Shown here: piece after piece, positions 11,821-35,053 of the stretch | How the letters are laid out: every line of letters starts with the position of its first letter | Numbering within the stretch: the stretch's first letter is position 1 | Origin: Deltaproteobacteria bacterium | GTDB taxonomy: Bacteria > Desulfobacterota > Desulfobacteria > Desulfobacterales > Desulfosarcinaceae | Reading direction: 5' to 3' | Assembly: GCA_020444075.1 (NCBI GenBank) | Contig: JAHLLR010000040.1 | Coordinates: 1 to 45,272, forward strand | Length of the DNA stretch: 45,272 bases | Notes under the pieces: model-generated | Seen by the model: the letters and a program-made list of their open reading frames with translations, nothing else | Databases searched by the model: none | Told to the model about the DNA's origin: nothing | Position numbers and translations under genes: made by a program

Positions 11821-12618
11821 TTATCCCTCGAACATGCCGGCCCGAAAGGCCTTGAGATAGTTCATGCAGAAGTTGTCCCGGCCGGCCAGCGCCTCGGCGG
11901 CGATAATATTGGCCATCATCTTCTTGTCCAGCGGGTTGATGATCGCCCCGTCCAGCCCCTTGGCAATCGCCATGGTCATGAAGGTCTGGTTCATGAACTT
12001 GCGCGCCGGCAGCCCGTAGGAGATGTTGCTCAGCCCGCAGGCCGTGTGGATGCCCGGAAAAGCCGCCACGATCCGTTCGATGGCGTTGATGAATCCCGTC
12101 CCGAAGGCCTTGTCCACCGATACCGGCTGTACCAGCGGGTCCACAAAGATGTTCTCCACCGGGATGTCGTTCTTGACTAATCCATTGACCAGCGTGTCGG
12201 CGATCTTCATGCGGTCGTCCACGGTCTGGGGCATGCCGTCGTCGCTCATGCACAGGGCGATCACTTTCATCTGTGTCCCGGCGATGATCGGCATGAGCTT
12301 GTCATAGCGATCCTTTTCCAGGCTGATGGAGTTGATCATGGGCGTGCCCCGGTGAGCGGCAAGGGCTGCCTCGATGGCGGACGGGTCCGGGCTGTCGATG
12401 GCGCAGGGCTTGTCGGTGACCTGCTGCACGGTCTCGACCAGCCACTTGAGGTATTCGGGCTCCTGGCCCACGAAAATACCCGCGTTGACGTCGATGTAGT
12501 CCGCACCGGCCTCGGCCTGGTCCTTGGCCACCTGCTGGATGGCAGCCGCATCCCCGGCCTCGATGGCCGCCTTGATCGCCTTGCGACTGGCGTTGATCAG
12601 TTCTCCGATAATGATCAT
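11821..12618 (-). CDS. Methyltetrahydrofolate:corrinoid methyltransferase (MtgA-like)
   Basis: A 265-residue TIM-barrel protein of the pterin-binding family (DHPS/AcsE/MetH domain). Visible: GELINASRKAI at the start, GADYIDVNAGIF near residue 39 with the Asp/Asn that contact the pterin, PCAIDSPDP near 71, PMINSISLEKDRYD near 94 and the C-terminal TACGLSNISYGLP. It is expected to move the methyl group from the methylated corrinoid protein to tetrahydrofolate, giving methyl-THF for the Wood-Ljungdahl pathway, or the reverse. AGGAGC precedes the ATG. It is the last gene of a probable operon with the corrinoid protein and the MttB-family gene, from which a 130-base spacer with a REP-like hairpin separates it. 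AcsE itself is less likely, because no CODH/ACS genes are nearby. Confidence 0.9.
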   Translation of the reverse strand: MIIIGELINASRKAIKAAIEAGDAAAIQQVAKDQAEAGADYIDVNAGIFVGQEPEYLKWLVETVQQVTDKPCAIDSPDPSAIEAALAAHRGTPMINSISLEKDRYDKLMPIIAGTQMKVIALCMSDDGMPQTVDDRMKIADTLVNGLVKNDIPVENIFVDPLVQPVSVDKAFGTGFINAIERIVAAFPGIHTACGLSNISYGLPARKFMNQTFMTMAIAKGLDGAIINPLDKKMMANIIAAEALAGRDNFCMNYLKAFRAGMFEG

Positions 12619-12654
12619 GGTTTTTGCTCCTGTTTTCCTGCTTCAGTTTTTCAC

Positions 12655-12719
12655 TAGGAGCGGCTTCCAGCCGCGATGACAACCGTCCGGGAACCGATCG
12701 CGACTGGAAGCCGCTCCTA
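12655..12719. repeat. REP-like palindromic hairpin within the methyltransferase operon
   Basis: Two 23-base arms (12655-12677 and 12697-12719) beginning TAGGAGCGGCTTCCAG are reverse complements with one mismatch, around a 19-base centre. Core GAGCGGCTTCCAGCCGCGA strongly resembles the REP/BIME-type repeats handled by RAYT transposases. No RAYT gene is in the window. It sits between the corrinoid-protein stop and the methyl-THF transferase start, so the transcript would carry a very stable hairpin. Confidence 0.85.
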
Positions 12720-12748
12720 CCGCCTAAACGCCTTAACGCATACTGCCT

Positions 12749-13372
12749 TCAGCCTACCAGCTGTTTCACCAGCTTGACCGCCCCGGGGGCGTCGGCGCTG
12801 TAGCCGTCGGCACCGATCTGGTCGGCAAAGGACTGGGTCACCGGCGCGCCGCCGATGATCGTCCGGGTCGTCATGCCTGCTTCTTTGACTGCTTTGACCG
12901 TGCTCTCCATCGACGGCATTGTCGTGGTCAGCAGCGCCGACAGGGCAATCACGTCCGCGCTCTTTTCTGCCGCCGTTTTGACAAACTTTTCGCTGTCCAC
13001 GTCCACCCCCAGGTCCACTACCTCGAACCCGGCCCCTTCCATCATCATCGACACCAGGTTCTTGCCGATATCATGCAGGTCGCCCTTGACGGTGCCGATG
13101 ACCACCACGCCCTTGCTCTTGCTCTGGCCGGCACTCAGGTGGGGCTTCAAGATCTTCAGGCCCGCCTTCATGGCCTGGGCGGCCATAAGCATCTCGGGCA
13201 CGAACAGTTCGCCGGCGGAAAAGCGCTCGCCGACTTCGTCCATGGCGCTGATCAGCCCGTCGTTTAGGATGGTTCCAATATCCGTGCCGCCGTCCAGTTC
13301 CGCCTGGGTCCTGGCCTTTACCGTCTCTTCATCAAAGGCGATGACTGCATTAAAAATGTCCTGGGTTGCCAT
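12749..13372 (-). CDS. Methyltransferase corrinoid protein (MtgC/MttC-like)
   Basis: A 207-residue cobalamin carrier. Residues about 1-85 are the helical B12-binding-2 cap (AGELFVPEMLMAAQAMKAGLKIL). Residues about 88-207 are the Rossmann-like B12 domain with the DLHDIGKNLV motif (D-x-H-x-x-G) whose His ligates cobalt, followed by GVDVDSEKFV, SALLTTTMPSM and IGGAPVTQSFADQIGADGYSADA. It accepts the methyl group from the MttB-family protein and hands it to the methyl-THF transferase. AGGAGG sits 7 bases before ATG 13372. It lies 135 bases downstream of the MttB-family gene. No corrinoid-reactivating ATPase (RamA-like) occurs in the window, so that function must be supplied elsewhere. Confidence 0.95.
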   Translation of the reverse strand: MATQDIFNAVIAFDEETVKARTQAELDGGTDIGTILNDGLISAMDEVGERFSAGELFVPEMLMAAQAMKAGLKILKPHLSAGQSKSKGVVVIGTVKGDLHDIGKNLVSMMMEGAGFEVVDLGVDVDSEKFVKTAAEKSADVIALSALLTTTMPSMESTVKAVKEAGMTTRTIIGGAPVTQSFADQIGADGYSADAPGAVKLVKQLVG

Positions 13373-13507
13373 AAATGATCCTCCTGAATGTAGGTGATAG
13401 GATTTAAACGCTGTTATTGCTGTATCCGTTACATTTTATAATATTTCAATTAGCAGAATTGAAATTCTATATTTTAGGTCGATCCATAGGTCAACTGATG
13501 TTTGCCG

Positions 13508-14935
13508 TCAAGATTTATTCTTACGTCCGGCAACGAAGGCAGCCAAGGCCATTTCTACATCCGGATCGATGGGCGGCTTTTCATAAGCAGCCAGGCGGTG
13601 GCTCAGGCTTTCCGTGGCGACCTGGTCAATACGCTTAGAACCGGCAGCCTTCCAGGCTGCATAATTCTGCCGGTTTAAAAAGTCGGTCATGTAAAATTCC
13701 GTGCGGCACAGCTTGAATGTTTTTGGCTGGGTCAGGTACTGACCACCGATGCCTACGGTTTTAATCATCTTTACATCGATGGCGGCATCGGAAACATCGA
13801 TGGGTTTGATCAGTTTGCGAACAACGCCGCACATCTCTTCGTCCATCAGGAATTTTTCAAAACTCATGGCAATGTAAGATCCCAGGATGCCGGCCGAATG
13901 GAGAATGAAGTTGATACCGCTGCGGGCGGCGGTAGACAGGGCCAGAACAGATTCCCCTGCGGCCTGGCCGTCGGGGAAATGGGCATCGGTCAGGCTGCCC
14001 CCGCTGCGGCTGGGAAGTTTGTAAAAGCGTGCCATCTGCGCGGTGGCCGAAACCACCATGGAAAGTTCCGGACAGCCGATTGCCAGTCCGCCGGTCCGCA
14101 TATCCATGGCTGAGGATGTGGACCCGTAGATCACCGGTGCACCGGGATTGACCAACTGCGCCAGGGTAACGCCCGCCAGGATCTCGGCATTCTGCAGGGC
14201 CAGCACGCCGGAGAGGGTCACCGGTCCGGACGAACCCGCCATGATCAGCGAGGCAATCACACAAGCCTGGTTGGCCCGGGCCAGTTCAATCAGTGCGCCT
14301 GCCATCTCGTCGGAAAACTGAAGCGGAGACAGGGAATTGATCAGGGACACCGAAACCGGTCCCGCGGCGGCGAGGTTGTCCGGGCCGCCCCACAACAGGC
14401 TTGCCATCTGAATGCAGTCCCGGGCACCCGCTTTGGATACCGGACTGCCCATAAAGGGTTTATCGCACAATACGATGCTGGAGAACATCATGTCCAGATG
14501 GGCGGTTTCAGGCGGCACGTCGCCGGGTTCCACCATCATGAACCCGTTCATGTCAATGGTTTTGGAGGTCTGGATCAGTTTGCAGAGATTGTCATAGTCC
14601 GCCATGATGGCTCCCCGCTGGCTACCGTCCGGAAGAGCGATGAAGGGCGCGCCATAACCGGGCGCAAAAACGAAATCATCTTCTCCCACGGCAACGCTTT
14701 TTTCCGGATTCCGGGCGGTCACCATGAACCGTGACGGGGCGGTATCGAGCGCTTTTTGGATCTGGGTTTCGGTCATGAAAACCGTTTTCCCTTCCACCTT
14801 GAACCCGTTGGATGAGAAAATCTCCAGGGCTTCGGGTTCATTGAAGGCGACACCGACACTGGACAGCAACACCATGGATGCATCGTGAATCCGGGTTATC
14901 TGGTCAGTGGTGAACGTTTGCATTCGGTCATACAT
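13508..14935 (-). CDS. MttB-superfamily (trimethylamine/betaine) methyltransferase, non-pyrrolysine
   Basis: A 475-residue protein matching the length and pattern of MtgB-type methyltransferases: the N-terminal ITRIHDASMVLLSSVGVAF, FAPGYGAPFIALPDG near residue 115 and the SGVLALQNAEILAGVTLAQLVNPGAP segment near 245. It demethylates a quaternary or tertiary amine onto the adjacent corrinoid protein. The frame has no in-frame amber codon, so it is the pyrrolysine-free type whose characterised members use glycine betaine, proline betaine or carnitine. The substrate here is unknown. AGGAGG lies 7 bases before ATG 14935, and a sigma-54 promoter lies 109-125 bases upstream. The divergent sigma-54 activator at 15221 is the likely regulator. 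Confidence 0.92.
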   Translation of the reverse strand: MYDRMQTFTTDQITRIHDASMVLLSSVGVAFNEPEALEIFSSNGFKVEGKTVFMTETQIQKALDTAPSRFMVTARNPEKSVAVGEDDFVFAPGYGAPFIALPDGSQRGAIMADYDNLCKLIQTSKTIDMNGFMMVEPGDVPPETAHLDMMFSSIVLCDKPFMGSPVSKAGARDCIQMASLLWGGPDNLAAAGPVSVSLINSLSPLQFSDEMAGALIELARANQACVIASLIMAGSSGPVTLSGVLALQNAEILAGVTLAQLVNPGAPVIYGSTSSAMDMRTGGLAIGCPELSMVVSATAQMARFYKLPSRSGGSLTDAHFPDGQAAGESVLALSTAARSGINFILHSAGILGSYIAMSFEKFLMDEEMCGVVRKLIKPIDVSDAAIDVKMIKTVGIGGQYLTQPKTFKLCRTEFYMTDFLNRQNYAAWKAAGSKRIDQVATESLSHRLAAYEKPPIDPDVEMALAAFVAGRKNKS

Positions 14936-22855: not shown

Positions 22856-24382
22856 TCAGGCGTTTTTTATCTGTTCCCCACCATACAGAGCCTTTACCGC
22901 CTCCCGATCGATGGTGCCGTTTTTTTCCGGAAGAGATTCCACGAATTGAACGTACTGGGGTTTTTTATAGCGGGCGATGCGGCTGCCGACGAATTCCATC
23001 AACTCCCTTTCGGTCAGCTGCCGGCCGGGGTTTAACACACATACCGCCTTGATGCCTTCCTTCCATTTGGGGTCGGGCACCCCAAACACGATCGTCTGAG
23101 AGACCGCCGGATGCTCAAGGATCACCTTTTCCACCTCCGCCGGATACACATTTTCACCACCGGGTTTGATCAGCTCTTTTTCGGGCTTGCGACCGGCGTA
23201 CCACAGGAATCCGTCTTCGTCGAAGCGACCCAGATCACCGGTGTGATGCCGCCCGTTGCGGAAGGTCTGTGTATTATCCGCGTCGAGATTCCAGTATCCT
23301 TTGAACACCATGGGGCCTTTTAGGGTAATTTCACCCACCAGGCCCGTCGGCACCGGGTGGTCCGCATCATCCACCAGTTCCACCCGTCCCATTGGGATCG
23401 GCCGTCCGGCTGAGCCGGGCCGGTCATCGTAGCGGCCCATGGTGGTGAGGCAGGAGGTCTCCGTCTGGCCGTACATATTGTAGAAACAGCCGCCGGTTGT
23501 CTTCTGGTAACGCGCGATGGTATCCGGTGCATCCAGGCCCATGACCGACTGCAGCGAAGAAATATCGGCGCCACACTTTTCCTGTGCGTCGAGGATGGAT
23601 CCGAGAATCGGCGAGAAATCGAAAAGTACGGAGACCTTGTGAGACTGGATCAGGTCCACGGCTTTTTCGGCGTCGAACTTGCTCATGTTGACATTCAGTG
23701 CCCCGGCATGAAAGGCATTGACGGCCATGAACAAGCCGCCCACGTGGAACAGGGGCAGCAGGTTCAGGTGGACGTCATCAGGCGACAGGCCGAAGCAGTA
23801 GTTGAGGTGCAGGCTGGCACACAGCAGATTGATATGACTCACCAGCGCCCCCCGCGGCCGGCCGGCAACGGCTGCCGTGTGGATGATCACCAGGCCGGCG
23901 TCGTCAGCTACTGGTTCGACGGAAAAAGGTGCATCGCCTATCAGTGGGTCGAAGGCATCCAAAGGACCGGTATTGTTCAGGTTAAAAAATCGCCTGACCG
24001 AAGGGAGCCGATCCCGGACGCCTGATACGGCGTCGCCGAATTCATCATCGGCAAATACTACCGCCGGCGTGCAGTCGTTAAGGTTAAATGCCATCTCATC
24101 GACGGAAAGGCGCCAGTTGATGGGCAGCACAATAGCCCCTAAAGCGGCAGCCGCGCCATATATCTGGAAAAAGGGCAGGCTGTTTTTTCCCACGATGCCG
24201 ACCCGGTCTCCGGTTTTGATTCCGGCTCTCTGCAGGCCTGAGGCCAGTCGGTCCACCTGCCCCTTGAATTGCCCGAAGGTTGTCGTCTCGCCGGTGTCGG
24301 CTTCGAACCAGGCCGGCCGGTTCCGGAAACACTGGGCATTGCGACAAATCAAATCATAAAGGGAGAAATCGTAAAGCCCCAT
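22856..24382 (-). CDS. Class I adenylate-forming acyl-CoA synthetase-like protein with altered core motifs
   Basis: A 508-residue ANL-superfamily protein. The overall fold is clear: TTFGQFKGQVDRLASGL, the GQTET motif (MYGQTETSCLTTMG near residue 302), HTGDLGRFDEDGFLWYAGR near 387 and GGENVYPAEVEKVILEHP. Two motifs are abnormal. The phosphate loop TSGTTGxPKG reads HTAAVAGRPRG (near 171), and the C-terminal catalytic segment PxxxxGKIxR reads LPEKNGTIDR, with Thr where the adenylation Lys should be. The enzyme may be impaired in adenylation or use an unusual mechanism. GGAGT precedes ATG 24382. It sits downstream of the liv transporter and universal stress protein genes, consistent with a role in the same uptake pathway. 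Confidence 0.85.
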   Translation of the reverse strand: MGLYDFSLYDLICRNAQCFRNRPAWFEADTGETTTFGQFKGQVDRLASGLQRAGIKTGDRVGIVGKNSLPFFQIYGAAAALGAIVLPINWRLSVDEMAFNLNDCTPAVVFADDEFGDAVSGVRDRLPSVRRFFNLNNTGPLDAFDPLIGDAPFSVEPVADDAGLVIIHTAAVAGRPRGALVSHINLLCASLHLNYCFGLSPDDVHLNLLPLFHVGGLFMAVNAFHAGALNVNMSKFDAEKAVDLIQSHKVSVLFDFSPILGSILDAQEKCGADISSLQSVMGLDAPDTIARYQKTTGGCFYNMYGQTETSCLTTMGRYDDRPGSAGRPIPMGRVELVDDADHPVPTGLVGEITLKGPMVFKGYWNLDADNTQTFRNGRHHTGDLGRFDEDGFLWYAGRKPEKELIKPGGENVYPAEVEKVILEHPAVSQTIVFGVPDPKWKEGIKAVCVLNPGRQLTERELMEFVGSRIARYKKPQYVQFVESLPEKNGTIDREAVKALYGGEQIKNA

Positions 24383-24528
24383 GGTTTTTACTCCTTGTGC
24401 GGTCGTTAGGCGTTGCGTTGCATGCGGAAAAAACAGTCCACCGGTATGAGGCGACCACCCTTCTCGGACAGAGCCTCCTCATCAGTTGCGCGTCAATGGC
24501 ATTTGCCGGATTGGTTTGCGGTCGCAGG

Positions 24529-24921
24529 TTACTTGATGGTGGTCACCGGACAGGCCGCTTTCAGAATTATGTATTGTGCCGTTGAGCCGAGTAACAGTTT
24601 CCGGGTCCTGGATTTTTTTTCGATGCCCACGAAAATCTGGTCGATACTGTTCTCCTGTGCAAAAATCACAATATCCTCACCCGGAGAAAGCCCTCTCGCC
24701 ATCTCATGGACTTCGTGTTCCGCCCCGGCGTCCTCGAGCTTCTGTCGAACCCGCTTCAGCTCCTGGTTCACCCGCGCGATGTCCTCGGGCTTTTCGCTGT
24801 GGCCGCCTTCCATGCTGGTGATGACAAAAACCTTGGCCTTGAAGGTCGACGCATGCTTAATCGCCAGATCGAGGGCTGCCCTGGACTCTGCTGAACCGTT
24901 GTAGGCAACGAGAAACTTCAT
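24529..24921 (-). CDS. Universal stress protein (UspA family)
   Basis: A protein of 130 residues from ATG 24921, which has AGGG 9 bases upstream and gives the normal family start MKFLVAYNGS. An in-frame ATG at 24942 would add seven residues without a ribosome-binding site. The ATP-binding type motif G-2x-G-9x-G-(S/T) is recognisable as GIEKKSRTRKLLLGSTAQYII, although the first part is imperfect. The role is a cytoplasmic stress or energy-state protein, here tied by position to the transporter operon: it starts 47 bases after the livF stop. Confidence 0.85.
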   Translation of the reverse strand: MKFLVAYNGSAESRAALDLAIKHASTFKAKVFVITSMEGGHSEKPEDIARVNQELKRVRQKLEDAGAEHEVHEMARGLSPGEDIVIFAQENSIDQIFVGIEKKSRTRKLLLGSTAQYIILKAACPVTTIK

Positions 24922-24968
24922 GATTGTATGCCCTTTCCCCATCGGCGAGACGCTGTCGTCCGGAACAC

Positions 24969-25829
24969 CTACATCCAGCGCTTGCGCCGCTTATAGGACT
25001 TGACTTCTTTGAAGGATTTCCGTCCGCCGCCCTGGGTGATGCCCATGTAAAACTCTTTGACATCCGGGTTGTTCTTGAGTTCCCTGGACGGGCCCTCCAG
25101 GACGATCTTGCCTGACTCCATGATATAGGCATAATCGGACACCTGCAGGGCGATCTTGGCATTCTGTTCAACCACCAGAATGGTGGTGCCCAACTCCCGG
25201 TTGATGGTCTGGACGTTTTCGAATATCTCTTTTACCAGCAGCGGTGCCAAGCCCAGGGAGGGTTCGTCCAGCATGAGCATGACCGGTGATGCCATCAGGG
25301 CCCGGGCAATGGCGATCATCTGCTGCTCCCCGCCGGAGCAGTACCCGGCCAGCCGGTTGGTGATTTTGGCCAGCCGGGGGAAGTGATCGTACATTTTATC
25401 GTGGTCTGCGTGAATTTTTTGAGATCCGTCTTTACGGGTGATGGATCCCACCCGTATATTTTCTTCCACCGTGAGATGTTTGAATACCCGGCGCCCTTCC
25501 GGCACCATGATTGCGCCAAGCCTGACCACCTGGGTACCCAGGACATTGGTGATGTCACTGCCTGCAAATTTGATATACCCATCGCGGATATAGCCGTTTT
25601 CCGGTTTGAGCAGGCCGCTGATGGCTCGCAACGTGGTGGTTTTACCGGCGCCGTTGGTGCCCAGCAGGGCGACGATGCCGCCTTGGGTGACATGCAGGCT
25701 GACACCTCGCAATACCTGGATGATATCGTTGTACACCACTTCAATGTTGTTGACTTCGAGCAGACTTCCGGATTTTTGTTTGTCCATAAGGCCGTTTTCT
25801 AATTCCAGGTGAAACCTTTTCGCCTTCAC
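24969..25829 (-). CDS. livF: Liv-type ABC transporter ATP-binding protein (LivF)
   Basis: Second ATPase of the branched-chain-amino-acid-type (HAAT) importer. Motifs: Walker A LLGTNGAGKTTT near residue 55, the Q loop, signature YCSGGEQQMIAIARAL near 166 and Walker B LMLDEPSLGLAP. The C-terminal GKIVLEGPSRELKNNPDVKEFYMG is typical of LivF. The longest frame starts at GTG 25829; ATG 25787 (MDKQKSGSLLEVNN) gives a more standard N terminus, but neither has a strong ribosome-binding site. After the family core, a basic tail (FKEVKSYKRRKRWM) extends the protein. It is separated from livK by a strong hairpin. Confidence 0.92.
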   Translation of the reverse strand: MKAKRFHLELENGLMDKQKSGSLLEVNNIEVVYNDIIQVLRGVSLHVTQGGIVALLGTNGAGKTTTLRAISGLLKPENGYIRDGYIKFAGSDITNVLGTQVVRLGAIMVPEGRRVFKHLTVEENIRVGSITRKDGSQKIHADHDKMYDHFPRLAKITNRLAGYCSGGEQQMIAIARALMASPVMLMLDEPSLGLAPLLVKEIFENVQTINRELGTTILVVEQNAKIALQVSDYAYIMESGKIVLEGPSRELKNNPDVKEFYMGITQGGGRKSFKEVKSYKRRKRWM

Positions 25830-33822: not shown

Positions 33823-34473
33823 TCAGACGACCAGGATTTTACGGACCGTGCTTACAATATCCTCGGGATCATCCAGCACCTGAATGATGTCCATGTCTTT
33901 GGGAGAAATCAGGGACTGGGCCAGCAACTGGTTGCGGATCCACTCCAGCAGGCCGCTCCAATGGTCGGTCCCCACCATGATGATGGGAAAGGGCCGAATG
34001 CGACGGGTCTGCACCAGGGTCATAACTTCGAAAAGCTCATCCATGGTGCCGAAGCCTCCGGGCATGACCACGTAGGCGGCCGCATATTTGATGAACATGA
34101 CCTTGCGGATGAAAAAATACTTGAACTCCATCTGGAGGGTTGCATATGGGTTGGGCTTTTGCTCGAAGGGAAGCCGGATGTTCAGGCCGACCGAGGTGCC
34201 GCCGGCTTCCGCGGCGCCCTTGTTGGCCGCCTCCATGATGCCGCCGCCCCCACCGGTTATAACCCCGAATCCGTTGTTAACGAAAAGGGCCGCGATGGCT
34301 TCCGCTTTTTTATATTGCGGATCGTCGGGCTGGGTTCTGGCGGATCCGAAAATGCTGACCGCAGGGCCCAGGTCGTGAAGCCCCTCCACCCCTTCTACAA
34401 ATTCCCCCATGATTTTGAACAGTCGCCAGGATTCTCCCAGCTTCAGATCGTCGATTAAAAACTGCTTCTCCAT
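33823..34473 (-). CDS. LOG-family protein (TIGR00730-type)
   Basis: A 216-residue Rossmann-like protein with the PGGxGTxxE motif (VMPGGFGTMDELFEVMT near residue 136) and GVITGGGGGIMEAANKGAAEAGG near 70. Plant LOG proteins and some bacterial ones release free cytokinin bases from nucleotide 5'-monophosphates as phosphoribohydrolases. In bacteria a general nucleotide monophosphate nucleosidase role is more likely, and older annotations call it lysine decarboxylase in error. AGGAAG precedes the ATG. It follows the selenoprotein gene and precedes the GAF-PAS-LuxR gene on the same strand. Confidence 0.9.
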   Translation of the reverse strand: MEKQFLIDDLKLGESWRLFKIMGEFVEGVEGLHDLGPAVSIFGSARTQPDDPQYKKAEAIAALFVNNGFGVITGGGGGIMEAANKGAAEAGGTSVGLNIRLPFEQKPNPYATLQMEFKYFFIRKVMFIKYAAAYVVMPGGFGTMDELFEVMTLVQTRRIRPFPIIMVGTDHWSGLLEWIRNQLLAQSLISPKDMDIIQVLDDPEDIVSTVRKILVV

Positions 34474-34538
34474 TCACTTCCTCTTTGCTGTCGATGGCCG
34501 GCAGGGAAAACCATTTTTGGGGCGGTTATCTGCTAAGG

Positions 34539-34555
34539 GGCGGCGTCCCGCCGCC
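34539..34555 (-). promoter_or_regulatory. SECIS-like hairpin downstream of the second UGA
   Basis: GGCGGCG and CGCCGCC form a perfect 7-base-pair stem with a GGA apical loop on the minus strand. The loop begins 20 bases after the TGA at 34571-34569, inside the 16-37-base window used for bacterial SECIS elements, and has a G in its first two bases. It might instead be a terminator stem, but no T run follows. Confidence 0.5.
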
Positions 34556-34559
34556 GGAT

Positions 34560-34787
34560 TCAAACCGTTCACCCCTTTCCCTGAAAACCCACCGTGACCC
34601 GTTCACCCTCTACGATCACGGGAATCTTTCGCCGGCCCTTGGAGAGAACCAGCATTTTTTCCAATGCATCAGGATCATCGATCACGCTGACGTAGTCAAC
34701 CGGTCTGTTTTCCCTGGCATAGGCCTCACGGGCCGCTGTGGTATGCGGTCACGAGTTTTTTCCGAAGATCGTCACCTGTGCGGTCAT
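34560..34787 (-). CDS. Uxx-star-type glutaredoxin-like selenoprotein (UGA read as Sec)
   Basis: From ATG 34787, with GGGAG 6 bases upstream, the frame reads MTAQVTIFGKNS, then TGA at 34751-34749 (codon 13), then PHTTAAREAYARENRP. It runs through YVSVIDDPDALEKMLVLS and RRKIPVIVEGERVTVGFQGKG to TGA 34571-34569. The beta-alpha-beta pattern is that of a small glutaredoxin, with Ser-Sec-Pro-His-Thr replacing the CxxC/CPYC site. A cis-Pro segment (KIPVIVE) is in the right place. This matches, from memory, the Uxx-star (seleno)protein family. A SECIS-like hairpin lies 18 bases after the UGA. The second TGA may also encode Sec, giving a C-terminal U-T-V before the stop at 34562-34560; the conservative end is 34569. 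Standard gene finding misses it because of the TGA. It probably reduces a thiol or selenol substrate. Confidence 0.85.
34722..34734 (-). promoter_or_regulatory. SECIS-like hairpin after the first UGA
   Basis: GGCC-CGTGA-GGCC on the minus strand forms a 4-base-pair stem with a 5-base loop containing GU near its start. Eighteen bases separate the UGA from the loop, within the bacterial SECIS range. The stem is short but perfect, and lies within the coding region as required in bacteria. Confidence 0.6.
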
Positions 34788-34863
34788 GGCCGTCTCCCAT
34801 GGGTTAAGCATAGTATGGCCGTCGGTGAAAAGATGCGACGCATGCCTGAATTTATTGGCAATC

Positions 34864-34892
34864 AACATATCTCCACGGGCCGGTATTGTCAA
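34864..34892 (-). promoter_or_regulatory. Sigma-70 promoter for the selenoprotein-LOG-sensor genes
   Basis: On the minus strand TTGACA (34892-34887) and TATGTT (34869-34864) are 17 bases apart, predicting a start near 34857 and a leader of about 70 bases before the selenoprotein ATG. Confidence 0.65.
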
Positions 34893-34908
34893 TGTTTACA
34901 CATTGACA
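34887..34908. promoter_or_regulatory. Palindromic operator between divergent promoters
   Basis: TGTCAATGT (34887-34895) and ACATTGACA (34900-34908) are perfect 9-base inverted arms 4 bases apart, flanked by a further GCCGGTA/TACCGGC pair (34879-34885, 34913-34919). Both divergent -35 boxes lie inside the arms, so a dimeric regulator bound here could control both directions. Confidence 0.65.
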
Positions 34909-34931
34909 TCAGTACCGGCGGTTGATAAATA
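34903..34931 (+). promoter_or_regulatory. Possible divergent promoter toward ptsH
   Basis: TTGACA (34903-34908) and a weak -10 TAAATA (34926-34931) are 17 bases apart on the + strand. The -35 is perfect, the -10 poor. It is the mirror image of the minus-strand promoter across the palindrome. Confidence 0.4.
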
Positions 34932-34945
34932 AATTAGGTTCTAAT

Positions 34946-34967
34946 AAAGGGATCATTCCCTTTTTTT
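34946..34967 (+). terminator. Intrinsic terminator upstream of ptsH
   Basis: AAAGGGA (34946-34952) and TCCCTTT (34957-34963) pair around TCAT and end in seven T (34961-34967). No + strand gene ends nearby. It may attenuate the transcript leading to ptsH or insulate the divergent genes. Confidence 0.75.
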
Positions 34968-35053
34968 GTTTGCGGGATGGCCCGGCAGGCCGGTTTTGAC
35001 GACTTTCTGCGGTTTCCTTTAATGAGTCGTGGTCATCAGACTATAGGGACAAC

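Follow-up and report, generated by a model that had tools for sequence, protein, structure and literature searches.

A UXX-star family 1 selenoprotein gene with two probably recoded UGA codons and a SECIS-like hairpin beyond its stop codon

UXX-star selenoprotein family 1 (NCBIfam NF041114) has been described under the name 'Distant Grx-like protein 1' (PMC13188914; PMC9312934). Both the family and its two selenocysteine (Sec) residues are already in print: PMC13188914 gives UxxT as the motif of family 1 and lists two Sec for it in a table. The same paper, a review from 2026, places bacterial SECIS elements within coding regions. Its bSECIS model consists of a loop of 3-9 nt, a stem of 4-16 bp, a distance of 16-37 nt and a minimum free energy (MFE) of -7.5 kcal/mol or lower, and it also asks for a G in the first two loop positions. 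For the Desulfobacterales, a selC* tRNA-Cys working with SelB* has been reported, with A1:U72 and U73 among its features (PMC7609411). Our literature search found no functional study of UXX-star family 1, though the family is listed in reviews, and no account of a SECIS in the 3' untranslated region (3'-UTR) for it; the Haft papers may contain one.

The window analysed here is a stretch of 45,272 nucleotides from a member of the Desulfosarcinaceae. A gene of this family is located on its minus strand (34560..34787), and a plus-strand reading of the same positions was dropped. The gene lies in the 580-base gap to which the original prediction had assigned it, at 34474-35053 between a TIGR00730/LOG-type gene and an HPr gene. 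Starting at the ATG at 34787, the translation is MTAQVTIFGKNS-U-PHTTAAREAYARENRPVDYVSVIDDPDALEKMLVLSKGRRKIPVIVEGERVTVGFQGKG-U-TV-stop, which amounts to 75 residues with two probable Sec, and the stop TGA is at 34562-34560. The first UGA (codon 13, 34749..34751, minus strand) stands in the context S-TGA-P-H-T, exactly as first noticed, albeit without a strand. It would encode the U of UPHT (codons 13-16), which corresponds to the N-terminal UxxT motif of family 1 and occupies the active-site position of glutaredoxins. The second UGA (codon 73, 34569..34571, minus strand) is the probable U of the C-terminal U-x-x-stop, and the third (codon 76, 34560..34562, minus strand), nine bases 3' of the second Sec codon, is the probable true stop. 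The coding end reads TGA-ACG-GTT-TGA at 34571-34560, corresponding to ...GKG-U-T-V-stop. With TGA at both codons 73 and 76, the originally estimated length of 72-75 residues was right, but one must place the stop at codon 73 to obtain a frame with no interruption other than the TGA at codon 13.

The family call of the original prediction was borne out by a search against the NCBIfam models: the protein scored 96.7 bits with NF041114 (curated cut-off 72, E 6.7e-28) and 77 bits with the wider model NF041212 (cut-off 66). It also exceeded the gathering cut-off of the glutaredoxin model PF00462 (33 versus 22.9 bits), and a genome search with read-through recovered the gene at E 1.4e-24. The predicted cis-Pro segment is present as KIPVIV. 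Purifying selection acts on the frame after the first UGA, as indicated by dN/dS values of 0.145 and 0.167 between UGA13 and UGA73 in comparison to two relatives of the same genus. The analysis confirms the gene as a true, conserved member of a named selenoprotein family with two probable Sec residues, whose insertion we infer; the name 'UXX-star' itself we read as the second UGA, two codons and the stop. On balance, we consider it probable that the gene encodes a 75-residue UXX-star family 1 selenoprotein with a glutaredoxin fold, in which UGA13 and UGA73 are both decoded as Sec via two SECIS elements, the second of them past the stop, UGA76 terminates translation by virtue of its register, and Sec13 is the likely attacking residue with Sec73 as its partner.

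To place the gene within its family, we searched genomes with NF041114. Matches over the cut-off were found in 174 of 389 genomes of the order and in none of 14 control genomes. Within the window's genus only four of the 12 other genomes have a match, at E 1e-22 or better, so the gene is patchily distributed. The alignment comprises 151 distinct members, namely the best-scoring among the matches listed in the order together with five further loci (157 HMM rows minus five duplicates, L009, L064, L065, L167 and L173, and minus one spurious LOG row); this is a non-random sample of mutually related sequences, which the family model itself favours. Among these best-scoring members, the C-terminal site is TGA in 151 of 151, whereas codon 13 is TGA in 143 and a Cys codon in eight. 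The stop follows exactly two codons after the C-terminal TGA in 147 of the 151 and three codons after it in the other four, and position U+2 is occupied by V in 131 and by I in 16 sequences, hence by V or I in 147 of the 151 best-scoring ones. For the two variable positions of U-x-x-stop, Thr-Val is found in the window gene and Gly-Val is the commonest pair among the members. A wider sample of the phylum, in which 30 loci were translated, gave 18 that end in U-x-x-stop. Four of these 18, from other families of the phylum (L235, L236, L237 and L240), combine an ordinary CPxC active site with the C-terminal U-x-x-stop. In two further loci over the NF041212 cut-off (L245 and L247) the U is replaced by Ser or Thr, and the remaining 10 resemble plain glutaredoxins with a longer C-terminus. 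Since the wider sample includes CPxC members, the C-terminal U-x-x-stop is more constant than the active-site U, and this predicted terminus is the constant feature of the family.

The best of five AlphaFold models shows a glutaredoxin fold (pLDDT 86.8; the other four were poor, 48-56), and the nearest PDB chains include glutaredoxins and NrdH (3ic4, 7c12, 1h75). Sec13, at the position of the nucleophilic Cys of glutaredoxins, would be the likely attacking selenol, and due to the UxxT motif and the lack of a second (resolving) Cys it would act as a monothiol-type nucleophile. Sec73, on a short C-terminal tail, would be its likely partner, either in a diselenide or selenosulfide shuttle or as a second ligand, so that the two Sec may act together. 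The main functional rival holds that both Sec are ligands of a metal or metalloid, for binding or trafficking, rather than a redox pair. A metal-binding ligand role has been suggested for UXX-star Sec in PMC13188914, and it agrees with the missing resolving Cys and with a C-terminal Sec that is replaced by Cys in none of the 151 best-scoring members. The glutaredoxin fold, the cis-Pro and the active-site position are nevertheless kept, although the fold alone is not decisive, and we regard a pure ligand role as possible but rather unlikely.

The original prediction counted a single Sec and overlooked the second recoded UGA at codon 73; its coordinates, 34560-34787, also leave out a second decoding hairpin at 34555-34539. 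This SECIS-like hairpin 2 (34539..34555, minus strand; GGCGGCG-GGA-CGCCGCC) is situated wholly 3' of the stop, with its loop 20 nt after UGA73. As evaluated by our own script (not bSECISearch), its 7-bp stem, the GGA loop, the distance of 20 nt and an energy of -12.8 kcal/mol agree with the bSECIS model. Hairpins within these rules at -7.5 kcal/mol or better occur in 111 of the 151 members, compared to 23 of 755 dinucleotide-preserving shuffles. The distance of the loop from the UGA is 16-27 nt, and 17-21 nt in 130 of 146 members; no hairpin 2 was found under the rules in five of the 151, three of which have three residues after U. Covariation was counted on 150 distinct sequences: the five consensus pairs are formed in 644 of 750 cells (86%), compared to 26-46% when slid by 1-3 columns, and double changes are present in 216 cells versus 31-97 in the slid versions, bearing in mind that, for both hairpins, the alignments used to count the pairs had also served to predict them, which favours these pairs. 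The number of extra pair types in hairpin 2 (22) was hardly above that of the slid versions (18-22). Folded singly, the hairpin regions of the window were no stabler than shuffles (z 0.02, -1.12, -0.30, -0.77 and 0.03), and an Rfam search gave no match. Hairpin 2 was also considered as an intrinsic terminator, which we rejected: it has no T run and was not listed by a terminator scan.

These data bear directly on the view that only UGA13 is recoded and UGA73 is an ordinary stop, leaving a protein of 72 residues with one Sec. Termination and recoding compete at a UGA (PMC4513850), another UGA lies close behind UGA73, and a model that reads through UGA13 alone would end at UGA73. This view is hard to reconcile with the conserved spacing of two codons to the stop and the V or I at U+2, with a covarying hairpin at SECIS distance past UGA73 in non-coding sequence, with the two Sec listed for the family in PMC13188914, and with the eight Cys-13 members, all of which (8/8) keep the C-terminal UGA. 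We judge it very unlikely and favour recoding of both UGAs.

The hairpin 18 bases after UGA13 that had been noted in the original prediction does exist (SECIS-like upper hairpin 1, 34722..34734, minus strand; GGCC-CGUGA-GGCC, inside the CDS), but its region folded alone is no stabler than shuffles (z 0.02). In the window it has a 4-bp stem, the loop CGUGA at 18 nt and an energy of -5.3 kcal/mol according to our own script, compared to the model limit of -7.5. A contiguous stem of -7.5 kcal/mol or lower was found in three of 143 members, no better than in shuffles (23 of 715), whereas a hairpin fitting the rules for loop, stem and distance after UGA13 was found in 130 of 143 members versus 460 of 715 shuffles. 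Compared to recodings with synonymous codons, the 42-base region was only slightly stabler (z averaging -0.45 and falling below -1 in 36 of 143 members), and its minimum-energy fold differs from the proposed hairpin. Due to this different fold and the lack of excess stability, the support for hairpin 1 is comparative. On 140 distinct sequences, 524 of 560 cells of the stem columns are paired (94%) versus 29-62% when slid, and double changes are found in 86 cells versus 0-14. One of the covarying pairs links the wobble positions of two codons, for Ala and for Glu, and is UA in 90 and CG in 40 sequences. A lower stem can be seen in the window, but its conservation was rejected, because 57% pairing was matched by 52% when slid by two and all four pairs were present in only 16 of 140 sequences.

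The loop of hairpin 1 contains an Arg codon, which is CGT in 110, CGG in 23, AGG in eight and CGC in one of 142 members. CGC, CGA and AGA thus account for one of 142 codons at this position, while together they provide about 49% of all Arg codons in 440 long ORFs taken from these loci; CGT makes up 13% of the Arg codons in the ORFs compared to 110 of 142 in the loop. The codon choice results in GU or GG in the loop, as favoured by the published bSECIS model (PMC13188914). Six of the eight Cys-13 members still use CGT in the loop and are therefore no clean negative control.

SelA (607.9 bits), SelB (372 bits) and SelD (371.5 bits) are encoded in the genome, all over their cut-offs, and the SelD gene carries an in-frame TGA of its own. 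Thus, neither of the two observations that would have spoken against the original prediction was made: the Sec machinery is represented by SelA, SelB and SelD, and the homologues have U (143) or C (8) at codon 13 in the 151 best-scoring members. Among the sel genes that it had proposed to look for, selC is the one not cleanly present, as only a 27-base canonical fragment was detected. A single 'tRNA-Sec', called by ARAGORN on contig C148, exceeds the Rfam cut-off (50.6 bits); it shows on inspection by eye an 8-bp acceptor stem, A1:U72, U73 and the anticodon UCA. Considering A1:U72, U73 and PMC7609411, we dropped it as proof of selC; it looks like a selC* tRNA-Cys, and a tRNA call alone can mislead. 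Directly downstream of it, a second, divergent SelB is encoded that is 31% identical to the main SelB.

The UCA tRNA followed by the divergent SelB on C148 (positions 23176-25192; L208, L012) has the arrangement of a selC* tRNA-Cys/SelB* pair and is flanked by genes for iron-sulfur/CCG, HGD-D, rhodanese and MauE proteins (Pfam). In 10 of 116 genomes, SelB is matched a second time at about 240 bits or higher, and in seven of seven loci examined ARAGORN called a UCA tRNA near it. In other genomes, SelB* has neighbours that on inspection by eye resemble dehydratase, Hdr or formate dehydrogenase genes.

The window's draft genome yielded no intact canonical tRNA-Sec but only the last 27 of its 98 bases, at a contig end (C40:1-27). 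Relatives have a canonical tRNA-Sec of 72-77 bits in 13 of 17 genomes, and of 11 genus genomes searched, the window's among them, eight carry the complete 98-base gene with 100% identity; two same-genus drafts with the UXX-star gene, G286 and G235, gave no match to the canonical tRNA-Sec. In three relatives, 3' pieces of tRNA-Sec are found apart from the intact gene (27 bases at G268:C1:5581262-5581288 and at G322:C1:471759-471785, 64 bases at G250:C2:10043-10106), and for this reason the C40 fragment may be either a broken gene or an adjoining repeat. The stray 3' ends resemble an attachment-site repeat, as if an element had integrated at tRNA-Sec. In the window's genome, the canonical gene was presumably lost at the assembly break.

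The same findings have to be weighed with regard to the amino acid, since the UGAs of the window's organism could be read as Cys by the selC* tRNA-Cys(UCA) and SelB*. The UCA tRNA, with its A1:U72 and U73, immediately precedes a divergent SelB, which corresponds to the arrangement in PMC7609411, and the intact canonical tRNA-Sec is absent from our searches of the own draft, G286 and G235. Yet, among the first 116 genomes of the order, four of the 52 with a UXX-star gene carry a second SelB that reaches about 240 bits (five with G110, a partial match of 220.9 bits), while the hairpins are family-wide. The genome furthermore retains SelA, SelD and the main SelB as well as the 27-base end of the canonical tRNA-Sec, and six ORFs checked around SelB* include no cysteinyl-tRNA synthetase. 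We therefore hold a Cys reading to be very unlikely and keep to Sec as the probable residue. At E 1e-50, SelB was not detected in three of the 52 genomes (G011, G079 and G103; 70-83% complete). The two internal stops could also have arisen by chance in a decaying glutaredoxin gene, but the probability of this is negligible in view of the dN/dS values after the first UGA and of UGAs conserved in 143 and 151 of the 151 best-scoring members.

How two UGAs could be read as Sec and a third one as stop is suggested by their distances from the hairpins. After initiation at 34787, SelB with Sec-tRNA-Sec, positioned by the SECIS inside the CDS, would read UGA13 as Sec, and the second SECIS, 3' of the stop codon, would position Sec insertion at UGA73. 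The release factor would then terminate at UGA76, because its distance to the loop of hairpin 2 is just 11 bases (20 minus 9), which is outside the 16-37 range of the model and hence out of decoding register. UGA is not avoided as the final stop: the 151 best-scoring members end in TGA (60), TAA (59) or TAG (32), and the share of TGA is no lower than among long ORFs from these loci (144 of 440, p 0.14). A hairpin 2 is present in 59 of the members that stop at UGA, and in these the loop is 17-22 nt from the Sec-UGA, which places the stop-UGA 8-13 bases from the loop. All 11 members with a loop distance of 23 nt or more stop at UAA or UAG (one-sided Fisher 0.003), a pattern that we take as a hint only, as the test was devised post hoc and a single genus contributes 10 of the 11; at such distances, a UGA placed three codons further would approach or enter the model range.

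From these positions, we slightly favour the idea that a SECIS outside the CDS decodes by register, with a UGA about 17-22 bases before the loop being read as Sec and one nine bases nearer as stop, and that in the window's organism selC*/SelB*, presumably inserting Cys, adds a further meaning of UGA that SECIS recognition must keep apart. If so, three UGA codons of one mRNA, all within a span of 64 codons, would be read in turn as Sec, Sec and stop. Less expected, and of specialist interest, are the location of the second SECIS in the 3'-UTR and the spacing of nine bases between a Sec-UGA and the stop-UGA that follows it. The gene and its relatives offer a compact natural test of how Sec-UGA and stop-UGA are distinguished nine bases apart on the ribosome, and likewise of whether a bacterial SECIS can act from the 3'-UTR.

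Upstream of the gene, the ribosome-binding site of the original prediction was recovered as GGGAG (34794..34798, minus strand). The promoter it had claimed is present as TTGACA-17-TATGTT (34864..34892, minus strand; 10 of 12 consensus matches), but this is a consensus match only, as one was found versus 0.5 expected in shuffles. Between the divergent UXX-star and HPr genes, there is an inverted repeat, TGTCAATGTGTAAACATTGACA (34887..34908), with perfect 9-base arms and back-to-back TTGACA hexamers; repeats of the TGTCAAT...ATTGACA kind are found upstream of 17 other members of the 151. Downstream, 86 bases past the UXX-star stop, follows a TIGR00730 gene with a LOG-like Rossmann fold (33823..34473, minus strand; 164.4 bits, cut-off 96.35). 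A LOG-like gene of the same BLAST cluster is located downstream on the same strand in at least 79 of the 151 loci (72 within 300 bases) and a divergent HPr/EI/SmpB block in at least 78, these counts being lower bounds because the flanks cover about 1.5-3 kb and are cut at contig ends. Both are present in 55 loci and the LOG-like gene alone in 24, so the LOG-like link is not merely a by-product of the HPr/EI/SmpB block. As a neighbour shared by about half of the loci, the LOG-like gene offers a clue to function.

Inspection by eye of read-through ORFs from two further gaps of the window revealed no selenoprotein. At about 2380-2880 on the minus strand, a small membrane protein with a coiled region appears, by eye, to be split over two frames, which is due either to a frameshift or decay of the gene or to a misassembly. 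A corrinoid methyltransferase cluster is located at 11821-14935, also on the minus strand. It includes an MttB-like gene with an open frame without TAG, which at 362.8 bits does not reach the pyrrolysine model's cut-off of 525, a corrinoid protein nearest to MtgC but below the MtgC cut-off, and, by its look, an apparent pterin-binding methyltransferase.

Compared to the known systems, the window gene resembles NF041114 family 1 in its score over the cut-off, the UxxT motif, the C-terminal U-x-x-stop and the two probable Sec, and shows no excluding difference, the x-x being Thr-Val. UXX-star families 2 and 3 and the HUGP/GUXX-star fusion have a related glutaredoxin-like domain; with NF041211, NF047338 and NF045501 the window gene reaches 48.8, 50.6 and 42 bits, below the cut-offs of 100, 97 and 325. 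Typical glutaredoxins possess a CxxC or CxxS motif and a C-terminal helix. The window protein has the fold and the cis-Pro segment in common with glutaredoxin and NrdH (PF00462, TIGR02194), but differs from them in UxxT and in the short tail that would bear Sec. Mammalian thioredoxin reductase ends in Gly-Cys-Sec-Gly and has its SECIS in the 3'-UTR. The likeness to this enzyme consists in a Sec near the C-terminus and a 3'-UTR SECIS, both probable in the window gene, whereas the reductase is an unrelated protein with a eukaryotic SECIS and eukaryotic decoding.
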